Source: Flagellimonas hadalis (lineage in GTDB: Bacteria > Bacteroidota > Bacteroidia > Flavobacteriales > Flavobacteriaceae). From it: 64,000 nt of DNA. The notes beneath the pieces are model-generated. The model saw only the letters and a list, made by a program, of their open reading frames with translations. It did no database searches and was not told where the DNA came from. Location: the NCBI RefSeq assembly GCF_007785775.2, contig NZ_VNIK02000001.1:484678-548677 (forward strand). Reading direction: 5' to 3'. The translations under genes were made by a program, and so were the position numbers. This document shows positions 11,945 to 36,490 of the stretch, piece by piece (position 1 is the stretch's first letter; every line of letters begins with the position of its first letter).

Positions 11945-12155
11945 TAATGGCTCTTTTGATTCAGAAGAATGGTCTATTTTCTATCATCCAATCTCTATTG
12001 TCTCAGTTGACACGCCCACCTGCCGCGATCATTGAGCCGTCACCATGAGCGCAGTCGAAGGGCTGTCGAAATGCAGGCAGGAATTGTACAAATGTCACAA
12101 ATCCCTACTCATCAGGAATTAATTGTCAATTGTTCATTATTTATTGAACACTGAA
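11945..12155. other. Rest of the 753-bp repeat-rich gap, no gene
   Basis: Contains the GAGCGCAGTCGAAGGGCTGTCG palindrome-derived element (about 12036-12070) and AATTGTCAATTGTTCATTA near 12120. Nothing coding or promoter-like was found. Confidence 0.5.
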
Positions 12156-33296: not shown

Positions 33297-34049
33297 TTAC
33301 TTGGCAATCTGTTTCTTTAATTCTTCCATGGATTGTTGCAGTTGTCGCAAAAGCCCTGTTTCGGTCGTGGCATCCACATTAAAGGTCAATTTGCTGCTCA
33401 CTTCCCAGATTTCCTGTATCTGAAATGGCTTGATTTCATAAGGAGGATAGGTCTCGTTCAAAGAAACCAAAGTGATGTTGTTGGAGTTGGGCCTTCGCTC
33501 TATTTTCTTGACCATTACGGAATCCTGGAGCACCACCACATACATTTTGTTGGGGCTCACATGATCAATATGCTCAATGGCACGCGCCAACACCCAATCA
33601 TTGGGCCTAAGATTTGGCAACATGCTGTCCCCTTCCACCTGAAACCCCCTGTACGTGGCATTTCGGAATTCGGGTATGGGCATGTCAAAGGCGGGCAACT
33701 GTTGGTACCAGCTCGTATCGGAAATGTTCTGCGGATAGCCCGCAGCGGCCTTGGCATTCACCAATACCATATTGTCCTGATCGGAATTGTCCACGGTGAC
33801 CACTTTGGGAATCACACTGGTTCTGGAGGTGTCCAAGTATTTTTGGTCACTCTCCCCGAACAGCCACATGGGGTTGATTTTAAATTGTTTCAATAACTCC
33901 GATACCACTTTTCCCGATAGTTTGGTCCTCCCCCGTTCAATATCAGCCGTGGTGTTCTTCACGCCCAACAATTCCGCAAACTCGGCCTGTGTATGGCCCA
34001 GCTCCCTTCGGATGTCCGTAAATCGTTTCAGTGTCAGTTCGTTTTCCAT
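33297..34049 (-). CDS. LexA-like XRE/S24 self-cleaving transcriptional repressor
   Basis: A 250-residue regulator. Residues about 5-66 form a Cro/CI-type helix-turn-helix (QAEFAELLGVKNTTADIERG). The C-terminal half is an S24 peptidase domain as in LexA: cleavage site Ala103-Gly104 in KAAAGY, catalytic Ser142 in EGDSM and Lys181 in VMVKK. Such proteins cleave themselves when RecA filaments form on single-stranded DNA. The gene is divergent from the radical SAM gene. Its predicted promoter is overlapped by an operator-like palindrome, so it probably represses itself. A prophage CI is less likely because no phage genes flank it. Confidence 0.9.
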   Translation of the reverse strand: MENELTLKRFTDIRRELGHTQAEFAELLGVKNTTADIERGRTKLSGKVVSELLKQFKINPMWLFGESDQKYLDTSRTSVIPKVVTVDNSDQDNMVLVNAKAAAGYPQNISDTSWYQQLPAFDMPIPEFRNATYRGFQVEGDSMLPNLRPNDWVLARAIEHIDHVSPNKMYVVVLQDSVMVKKIERRPNSNNITLVSLNETYPPYEIKPFQIQEIWEVSSKLTFNVDATTETGLLRQLQQSMEELKKQIAK

Positions 34050-34066
34050 CCTAGATACATATTGCT

Positions 34067-34150
34067 GTCAGGTCGAGCGCAGTCGAGACCTAATAAACGT
34101 TTCTTAGGTAAGACCTCTCGATAGCTCCTTCGACTACGCTCAGGATGACG
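34067..34150. repeat. Dispersed imperfect palindrome in the repressor leader
   Basis: The left arm GTCAGGTCGAGCGCAGTCGAG and right arm CTTCGACTACGCTCAGGATGAC are related inverted copies of the element at 1063-1135. It lies inside the predicted 5' leader of the repressor transcript. Confidence 0.55.
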
Positions 34151-34172
34151 CCTCGAGGAGCCAATACCTCCT

Positions 34173-34202
34173 CAAATATAGCTAATTTGGATTATTTCCA
34201 AA
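34173..34202 (-). promoter_or_regulatory. Predicted promoter of the LexA-like repressor
   Basis: On the minus strand a TTTG -33 box (34202-34199) is followed after 18 bases by TATATTTG (34180-34173), an exact TAnnTTTG -7 box. The first operator (34187-34201) covers the -33 box and most of the spacer. Confidence 0.6.
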
Positions 34203-34265
34203 ACTTTTTATGGATTATTTCCATTTATTGGATTATTTCCATATTTTTGATTGGAATATTTCCAA
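34187..34265. promoter_or_regulatory. Array of four 15-bp operator-like palindromes
   Basis: Four sites: TTGGATTATTTCCAA (34187-34201), ATGGATTATTTCCAT (34210-34224), TTGGATTATTTCCAT (34228-34242) and TTGGAATATTTCCAA (34251-34265). Each has inverted arms of five or six bases around a five- or three-base centre. Centres are 23, 18 and 23 bp apart, roughly two helical turns. They lie between the divergent repressor and radical SAM genes, and are most simply the binding sites of the repressor. Confidence 0.75.
34242..34249 (+). promoter_or_regulatory. Predicted -7 box (TATTTTTG) of the radical SAM gene
   Basis: Exact TAnnTTTG, 19 bases before the ATG at 34269 and wedged between operators 3 and 4. 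A TTTC about 20 bases upstream is a possible weak -33 box. Repressor bound at sites 3 and 4 would block it. Confidence 0.5.
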
Positions 34266-34268
34266 GTT

Positions 34269-35531
34269 ATGGATTTTGATAGAATACGGGAAAAACTGAA
34301 CATTCTGGCCGATGCGGCCAAATACGACGTGTCATGTGCCAGTAGCGGAAGCGACCGGACCAATACCAACAAGGGACTCGGTAATGCTTCGCACATGGGA
34401 ATCTGCCACAGCTATACCGAGGATGGACGTTGTATTTCCTTATTGAAAATCTTGCTGACCAACCATTGCATCTTTGATTGCGCCTATTGCGTCACCCGCA
34501 AAAGCAACGATGTAAAACGAGCGGCCTTCAAAATCCAGGAAGTGGTGGACCTGACCATCAATTTTTACCGGAGGAACTATATCGAGGGATTGTTCCTGAG
34601 TTCCGGGATATTCAAAATTGCGGATTATACCATGGAGCGTTTGGTAGCCGTGGCCAAAAAACTACGGGAAGAGGAAAATTTCAATGGGTATATCCACCTG
34701 AAATCCATACCCGGGGCCAGCGATGAACTCATGTACGAAGCGGGACTCTATGCGGACCATCTTTCCGTTAATATTGAAGTGCCTACCATTTCTGGCCTAA
34801 AACTCTTGGCTCCCGATAAAAAGCATGAAGACTTCACCAAACCCATGCTCAAGGTGAAGAATGAGATCGTGCGCTTCCAAACCGAACGAAAGATCATCAA
34901 AAGCACTCCCAAATATGCCCCGGCCGGACAGAGCACCCAAATGATCGTGGGCGCTTCAGGGGAAACGGATAAGGACATCATGTACTCCGCCACCTATTAT
35001 TACAAGACCTACCAAATGAAACGGGTATATTATTCTGGTTATGTGCCAGTTGCAGATGATACCCGATTGCCGGCCATTGGTTCGCAGGTGCCCATGCTCC
35101 GGGAGAACAGGCTCTACCAGACCGATTGGCTCTTGCGCTTCTATGGTTTTGCCGTGAACGAAATTTTGAGCAAGGAGCACCCCAATCTGGATATGGACGT
35201 AGACCCCAAGCTTTCGTGGGCGTTGCGCAACCTGTACCATTTTCCAGTGGATGTGAACGCGGCGGACAAACGTCTCTTGGCCCGCATACCCGGTATAGGC
35301 ATGCAATCCGTGGAAAAAATAATAAAAGCCCGAAAATTTCGAAGGCTGAACTGGGACCACCTCAAAAAAATTGGAGTGGCCCTCAACCGCGCCCAGTATT
35401 TCATGGTATGCGATTCCCGCCATTGGGAACGCCGTGATCTGGATGCGGAGAAAATCAAGGGGATGATCTTGCAGACGTCGTCCGGCAAGTTCAGGAACCA
35501 ATACAGTAACCAACTGTCATTATTCAATTAA
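34269..35531 (+). CDS. Radical SAM DNA modification/repair protein (TIGR03916-type)
   Basis: A 420-residue protein. The iron-sulfur cysteines are Cys67, Cys71 and Cys74 in HCIFDCAYC (CxxxCxxC), in a radical SAM domain with an N-terminal KLNILADAAKYDVSC segment typical of the family. A helix-hairpin-helix DNA-binding motif follows near residue 340 (LLARIPGIGMQSVEKI). The last residues are QLSLFN, a match to the beta-clamp binding consensus QL[SD]LF. The chemistry on DNA is unknown; spore photoproduct lyase is a distant relative. The ATG at 34269 is preferred to a TTG inside operator 4. Forms a pair with the DUF4130 gene after a 111-bp gap. Confidence 0.9.
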   Translation: MDFDRIREKLNILADAAKYDVSCASSGSDRTNTNKGLGNASHMGICHSYTEDGRCISLLKILLTNHCIFDCAYCVTRKSNDVKRAAFKIQEVVDLTINFYRRNYIEGLFLSSGIFKIADYTMERLVAVAKKLREEENFNGYIHLKSIPGASDELMYEAGLYADHLSVNIEVPTISGLKLLAPDKKHEDFTKPMLKVKNEIVRFQTERKIIKSTPKYAPAGQSTQMIVGASGETDKDIMYSATYYYKTYQMKRVYYSGYVPVADDTRLPAIGSQVPMLRENRLYQTDWLLRFYGFAVNEILSKEHPNLDMDVDPKLSWALRNLYHFPVDVNAADKRLLARIPGIGMQSVEKIIKARKFRRLNWDHLKKIGVALNRAQYFMVCDSRHWERRDLDAEKIKGMILQTSSGKFRNQYSNQLSLFN

Positions 35532-35642: not shown

Positions 35643-36416
35643 ATGAATGCTTCAACAACCTTAATTTATGACGGCAGCTTCAACGGCTTTCTTACGGCTG
35701 TGTTTGTTGCTTTTGACGAAAAGATCAATGTGGCCGACATCCAAAGGAACGGTCAGTGCCAAAATGGACTGTTTTCGGACACCGAGACCATTTTCACCCA
35801 CGTGGAAAAGGCCAAACGGGTCTGGAACGGCATCAAGGGCAAAAGCCACAATGCCATTTCCAATGTGTATTTTGCCTTTTTGAGCGAAACCGAAGGGGTG
35901 GAAATGATGTTGTACACCTACATCCAAAAACTGATGCGCACCCAGACCGGCAAGTATCTGGACTATTCGGACGGTACGGTGCTGCACATCAGCCAATTGG
36001 CACGAAAGGTGGGCCGGGAAAAGCACCGCATGGAGGCCTTTGTGCGGTTCCAGTTGACGAAGGACAACATCTATTTTGCGAACATAGAGCCCGATTTTGA
36101 TGTGCTGCCCCTGATTTCCAAGCATTTTCGGGACCGCTATGCGGACCAGCAATGGCTCATTTACGACGTGAAGCGCAAATATGGCATCTATTACAACTTG
36201 GACCATGTGGAAATGGTGTCCCTGAACCTACGGGAAGTACATTTCAACAAAATCCATAAAAGTGATGCTTTCCTGAGCGAGGAATACGATTACCAGACCC
36301 TTTGGAACGATTATTTCAAAAGCACGGGCATCAAGTCCCGGATCAACCCCAAATTGCATACGCAGCATGTGCCCAAACGGTATTGGAAGTATCTTTCTGA
36401 GAAAAAAGCAAGTTAG
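35643..36416 (+). CDS. DUF4130 (TIGR03915-type) putative DNA repair protein
   Basis: A 257-residue protein starting TLIYDGSFNGFLTAVF, the family signature, with the later segments LMRTQTGKYLDYSDG and FVRFQLTKDNIYFA and the end HVPKRYWKYLSEK. The family is almost always next to the radical SAM partner, and in some bacteria the domain is fused to a uracil-DNA-glycosylase-like domain, so a role in processing DNA lesions or modified bases is likely. The biochemical function is not known. No glycosylase domain is attached here. Confidence 0.88.
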   Translation: MNASTTLIYDGSFNGFLTAVFVAFDEKINVADIQRNGQCQNGLFSDTETIFTHVEKAKRVWNGIKGKSHNAISNVYFAFLSETEGVEMMLYTYIQKLMRTQTGKYLDYSDGTVLHISQLARKVGREKHRMEAFVRFQLTKDNIYFANIEPDFDVLPLISKHFRDRYADQQWLIYDVKRKYGIYYNLDHVEMVSLNLREVHFNKIHKSDAFLSEEYDYQTLWNDYFKSTGIKSRINPKLHTQHVPKRYWKYLSEKKAS

Positions 36417-36464: not shown

Positions 36465-36490
36465 GGGCCTGAGCGAAGTCGAAGGGTTGA
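36465..36490. repeat. Partial copy of the dispersed GAGCGAAGTCGAAGGG repeat
   Basis: A one-arm fragment, CCTGAGCGAAGTCGAAGGGTTG, of the element type seen at 1.07 and 34.07 kb, located just before the AT-rich orphan gene. Confidence 0.45.

Follow-up and report, generated by a model that had tools for sequence, protein, structure and literature searches.

Conserved distances between GGA-N5-TCC sites at a putative SOS control region of Flavobacteriaceae

The SOS response in Bacteroidetes is run by S24 repressors with a CI-like DNA-binding domain, and one non-canonical LexA group of these, found mainly in Flavobacteriaceae, reads the palindrome GGA-N5-TCC (Sanchez-Osuna et al., 2021; PMC8565304). 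The predicted network of this group comprises the repressor's own gene, dinB, splB, umuDC, and the two-gene COG1573–COG4277 repair operon. In the exemplars the CI-like DNA-binding domain was predicted, and the exemplar repressor of S. agarivorans bound GGA-N5-TCC in EMSA as well as its own promoter; its gene was induced by mitomycin C, and recA of the exemplar species was not induced (PMC8565304). Two or more sites were noted at several promoters, and one motif was scored by EMSA at the S. agarivorans umuD promoter; if that probe held no second site, a single site is enough for binding. An account of the distance between sites was not found in the main text of that paper, supplements aside, where 'cooperativ' does not occur and 'spacing' occurs once. 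A literature search found no title on operator spacing in the GGA-N5-TCC group, most subscription journals lying outside its scope. The motif, the regulator class, and the targets are already published, while the fixed inter-site geometry reported below appears undescribed.

In lambda-type CI operators (OR1–OR3), as in the array analyzed here, a row of operators lies between divergent promoters that include the repressor's own. The gaps of lambda OR are 23–24 bp, close to the 22–23 bp gaps of the array, but the array belongs to a chromosomal SOS locus; the likeness, known here from geometry, would be one of layout and DNA-binding domain. Canonical LexA of the E. coli type is also a self-cleaving S24 repressor of repair genes with several sites at lexA, but has another DNA-binding domain and another motif. 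Multiple non-overlapping sites occur at only 4 of 31 E. coli SOS promoters (PMC11332147), whereas same-spaced pairs are usual at both targets studied here. UmuDAb of Acinetobacter, an S24 DNA-damage repressor outside LexA, binds cooperatively with a Hill constant of 4.9, but it is UmuD-derived, reads another operator, and is helped in binding by DdrR (PMC11332147).

The window, that is, the whole 64,000-nt stretch of Flagellimonas hadalis DNA that was analyzed, carries four exact copies of the palindrome WTGGAWTATTTCCAW at 34187–34265, which lie in the spacer between a repressor gene (33297–34049, minus strand) and a radical SAM gene (34269–35531, plus strand). The centres are 23, 18, and 23 bp apart; the four 15-bp sites reported in an earlier note on this DNA were confirmed by exact matches. 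Exact matches were absent from 100 dinucleotide shuffles of the window; with up to three mismatches the 15-mer was not enriched in it (29 vs. 26.6 in shuffles). The core of all four sites is GGA-N5-TCC, unlike the CTGT-N8-ACAG and GAAC-N4-GTTC LexA boxes, as the note, unaware of the published motif, had held. Site 1, the repressor-proximal one (34187–34201, core GGATTATTTCC at 34189–34199), covers both the −33 box and the spacer in the predicted repressor promoter. Site 2 (34210–34224, core 34212–34222), whose distances are 23 bp to site 1 and 18 bp to site 3, touches neither of the −7 boxes nor the repressor −33 box. The core of site 3 (34228–34242, core 34230–34240) ends 1 bp ahead of the predicted radical SAM −7 box, and site 4 (34251–34265, core GGAATATTTCC at 34253–34263) covers the expected transcription start of that gene.

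The predicted repressor promoter consists of a −33 box TTTG (34199–34202, minus strand), within a TTTTGGA conserved in the anchored profile, and a −7 box TATATTTG (34173–34180, minus strand) 18 bases from it. The predicted −7 box of the radical SAM operon, TATTTTTG (34242–34249, plus strand), lies between sites 3 and 4, and the radical SAM ATG at 34269 is 19 bases past it. These positions agree with the earlier note, which described an array overlapping both divergent promoters, placed site 1 on the −33 box plus spacer of the repressor's promoter, and had sites 3 and 4 flank a −7 box 19 bases ahead of the radical SAM ATG.

The repressor (250 aa) was assigned to the non-canonical LexA type by domain matches and invariant residues. 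HTH_3 (PF01381) scored 33.5 bits (cut-off 23) and Peptidase_S24 51.4 bits (cut-off 23.3); the canonical LexA winged HTH (PF01726) was not among its Pfam matches at E 0.001, where HTH_3 and HTH_19 were listed. Residues A103, G104, S142, and K181 were invariant in an alignment of 29 sequences, and the closest named relatives, from Allomuricauda/Flagellimonas, were 98–99% identical. An AlphaFold2 model built from an alignment of 25 close sequences had a mean pLDDT of 44, with values above 70 for only part of the N-terminal 60 residues, too poor for testing contacts, and a PDB sequence search gave one match (DBP48, E 6e-4). Among viral contigs there was one match (L317), whose neighbour genes look bacterial by eye, so it supplied no phage array.

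The radical SAM gene encodes a putative DNA modification/repair protein of TIGR03916 (rSAM_link_UDG; 660.3 bits vs. a cut-off of 343.5), and profile matches place a putative DNA repair protein of TIGR03915/DUF4130 at 35643–36416 on the plus strand. We take TIGR03916 to be COG4277 and TIGR03915 to be COG1573. Features shared with the published group are HTH_3 plus S24, the Ala-Gly bond, the Ser-Lys pair, the occurrence in Flavobacteriaceae, and sites at the repressor's own gene, the COG1573–COG4277 repair operon, dinB, and splB; by domains, residues, motif, neighbours, and family the locus fits as a member of the GGA-N5-TCC non-canonical LexA group. It differs from the published description in the fixed 18/19 and 22/23 bp gaps and in umuC–umuD and recA standing without a site.

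The repressor has a long leader (34050–34168, minus strand) with an exact copy, at 34128–34143, of the interspersed repeat CTTCGACTNCGCTCAGNNTGAC, which had 13 matches with at most one mismatch in the genome and none for the backward control. The leader also carries an imperfect inverted repeat copy, recognized by eye, that pairs with the exact copy in the predicted fold, a modest hairpin (−38.9 kcal/mol, z −1.73). More copies of the repeat core lie in the window at 36469–36484 and 12045–12060.

The sites were also mapped across the 4.07 Mb of the genome, where exact TTGGAWTATTTCCAW occurred four times, with three copies in the array, whose site 2 begins with A, and one at C1:98300; this last copy, inside a 354-aa ORF near its start, is presumably there by chance. 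Tandem pairs, defined as two GGAW5TCC with starts 15–45 bp apart, numbered six vs. none for the backward pattern used as control. Three of them were in the array, and two, each spaced 19 bp, lay upstream of a splB-like radical SAM gene of the PA0069 family and of dinB–dnaE with an SRAP gene divergent, respectively; the sixth, at C3:109628 (28 bp) inside a 1087-aa ORF, was taken as chance. Single GGAW5TCC sites were not specific, with 139 in the genome vs. 41 for the backward control. The note's refuting condition, a motif equally common at random positions, was not borne out for tandem sites, which are rare there. Further regulon members may be hidden among loosely matching single sites; one single site, TTGGAATTTTTCCAA, lies between ORFs at C8:46166 (L149).

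GGA-N5-TCC was absent from the 300 bp upstream of the umuC–umuD operon and of recA in the window genome, so that the regulon seems to have fewer members than the published one. The UmuC-like and UmuD-like ORFs (L234 1477–3182, G000:C23) stand in the order umuC–umuD and overlap by a few bases; the usual gene order is umuD before umuC. The dinB of this genome (L147 3263–4477, G000:C56) shares 98% and 88% identity with its counterparts in two other genera, against at most 73% for the rest of the dinB matches listed; horizontal transfer may have brought in the gene and its 19-bp operator pair together.

To follow the array among relatives, 170 repressor loci were collected, namely the best 80 of 480 relatives (the named loci), 30 loci of the family, and 60 further stretches with at least 53% identity to the repressor, selected from a longer list; they represent 166 distinct upstream regions, and related genomes among them are not independent. 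Conservation in orthologous loci, which had been set beforehand as a test on which the operator reading could fail, was found: a chain of at least two sites was present in 160 of the 166 distinct promoters and no chain in six (L080, L169, L175, L179, L188, and L210). Counted from the repressor side, the first gap (n = 160) was 23 bp in 104 and 22 bp in 36; the second gap, present in 126, was 18 bp in 110, 19 bp in 8, and 20 bp in 3; and the third was 23 bp in 42, 19 bp in 3, and 18 bp in 2. The distance from the chain to the ATG, approximate for protein matches that start later than residue 1, ranged from 18 to 345 bp. Together the three core sites cover 41–42 bp, which at 10.5 bp per turn is about four helical turns and puts sites 1 and 3 on roughly one face of the DNA.

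When one locus was taken from each of 78 genera, a first gap of 22 or 23 bp was retained in 57, comprising 37 with 18/19 bp as the second gap, 16 with 22/23 bp alone, and 4 with 22/23 bp plus another gap. Judged by exact sites, 21 of the 78 differ from the plain array: a 23/18 array is preceded by an extra site in 2, only the outer sites, 40–42 bp apart, are present in 5, gaps of other lengths (18, 19, 21, 30, 31) occur in 10, and no more than one exact site is present in 4. The array was retained despite change of the divergent gene, which in the 80 named loci was radical SAM in 63, DUF4130 directly in 16, and another gene in 1; dinB is directly divergent from the repressor in four sampled genera (G057, G077, G094, and G111). 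The radical SAM and DUF4130 families are usually paired. In the 16 loci with DUF4130 directly beside the array (L033, L037, L040, and 13 more of L021–L100), a radical SAM match was not found within up to 5 kb on each side.

A pair scan of 60 genomes of the family gave 68 pairs vs. 1 for the backward control, of which 56 were spaced 18, 19, 22, or 23 bp; equal use of all 31 spacings (15–45 bp) would give about 9. A repressor orthologue, defined as a match with E below 1e-60, was held by 22 of the 60 genomes and by all 21 genomes with a pair spaced 18–23 bp. Some pair occurred in 21 of the 22 orthologue-holding genomes vs. 2 of the 38 others (Fisher p 7e-13), and in these two the spacings were 17 and 35 bp. 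The spacing rule was not extended to the sister group that reads CTAA-N5-TTAG: among 198 genomes of the class, 5 had a pair (backward control 1), at 40, 24, 33, 19, and 22 bp, one of them across two N, with no preferred spacing.

Target genes were examined at 30 splB-like loci listed of 110 genomes with a match and at 30 dinB loci listed of 102. In repressor-positive genomes, a pair was found at 17 of 19 splB-like loci, G143 and G148 having no site, and at 16 of 17 dinB loci, G108 having one site only; every pair was spaced 19 bp. Two of the dinB pairs (G077 and G111) are the repressor's own array, beside which dinB stands. No site was found at the 11 splB-like and 13 dinB loci of repressor-negative genomes (0/24). 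Together, the 19-bp pairs of both lists span 26 genera. Based on the conservation, the rarity of tandem sites, and the published GGA-N5-TCC binding of the regulator's group, the four palindromes are very likely operators of the adjacent repressor, in line with what the earlier note had predicted from the letters of the DNA.

We consider, with a probability of roughly 0.85, that the array is a flavobacterial SOS control region in which repressor dimers in contact with each other block both promoters and are released after DNA damage. Dimers of the adjacent CI-like S24 repressor would bind each GGA-N5-TCC palindrome, and neighbouring dimers would touch, which would set the sites 18/19 or 22/23 bp apart. 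The row of dimers would block both promoters, with site 1 occupied on the repressor's own −33 box and spacer, and with sites 3 and 4 bracketing the −7 box of the radical SAM/DUF4130 operon. Upon DNA damage, RecA filaments would trigger self-cleavage at A103–G104 by S142/K181, the dimers would leave, and the repair operon and the repressor would be induced together with dinB–dnaE and the splB-like gene elsewhere.

The distances could instead be set by promoter architecture, the sites being placed relative to the −7 and −33 boxes and the dimers binding independently. Box positions are indeed regular: 102 of 120 arrays have the repressor −7 box, TAnnTTTG, 8 bp beyond the core of site 1, 73 of 74 radical SAM loci have the radical SAM −7 box 1 bp past the core of site 3, and 17 of 17 pairs at splB-like genes have a −7 box in the gap between the sites (TCC-A-TAnnTTT-GGA). 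The three-site radical SAM loci repeat this splB layout, with the −7 box between site 3 and a degenerate GGA-N5-TAC, which in 36 of 40 loci (e.g., L067, L070, and L079) stands at exactly 19 bp past site 3 and takes the place of the full site at 23 bp in four-site species. At dinB, however, the −7-like box TAnnTTWR is 1 bp past the second site in 12 of 16 loci and in the gap in only 1 of 16, the window genome's own dinB being among the exceptions, yet the spacing is 19 bp in 16/16. The same 19-bp spacing thus occurs with the box between the sites and with the box after both, indicating that promoter layout alone does not set it. Moreover, site 2 keeps conserved distances to sites 1 and 3 although it is off both −7 boxes and the repressor −33 box. 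Promoter architecture is therefore rather unlikely as the source of the spacing, and contact between dimers is preferred mainly because 19 bp is found in both layouts.

In 49 of the 120 arrays the start of site 1 is at most 33 bp ahead of the repressor ATG, which leaves a few bases between the end of the −7 box and the start codon; repressor mRNAs from these arrays would have a very short leader or none.

A switch like lambda OR, in which the sites are filled in a set order and one dimer additionally activates a promoter, would also suit the three core sites, placed between divergent promoters that include the repressor's own, the HTH_3 N-terminal domain, predicted to be CI-like in the published exemplars, and the gaps near those of lambda OR. 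The divergent gene, however, is a repair gene and not Cro-like, and the resemblance seen here is one of geometry, which makes such a switch, with its activation and filling order, distinctly improbable. That another regulator reads the palindromes, binding by this strain's own repressor being a prediction, is hardly credible in view of the EMSA published for this protein group and its motif (PMC8565304), of target-gene sites confined to repressor-holding genomes, and of the only other S24 match in the genome, a 149-aa UmuD-like ORF after a UmuC-like ORF (both named by eye), which is too short to leave room for an added DNA-binding domain.

Contact between dimers would thus be the best explanation of the fixed spacing, and the conserved distances strengthen the cooperative binding put forward in the earlier note, though still as a suggestion. 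A more far-reaching reading, to which we give an even chance, takes the distances as a geometric code. In it, dinB and splB would each carry two operators exactly 19 bp apart with touching dimers, and the repressor's own divergent promoter would carry a rigid three-operator unit of 22/23 plus 18 bp (about four turns), kept across dozens of genera whatever the neighbour or leader length; a cooperative operator in the style of phage CI would have been retained and spread through a chromosomal SOS network.

For the family, two GGA-N5-TCC sites 19 bp apart provide a signature for regulon members where single sites are unspecific. If the spacing is due to contact between dimers, SOS induction in Flavobacteriaceae would be steeper than with independent sites, and the conserved geometry would be relevant to the phage origin proposed for the repressor.
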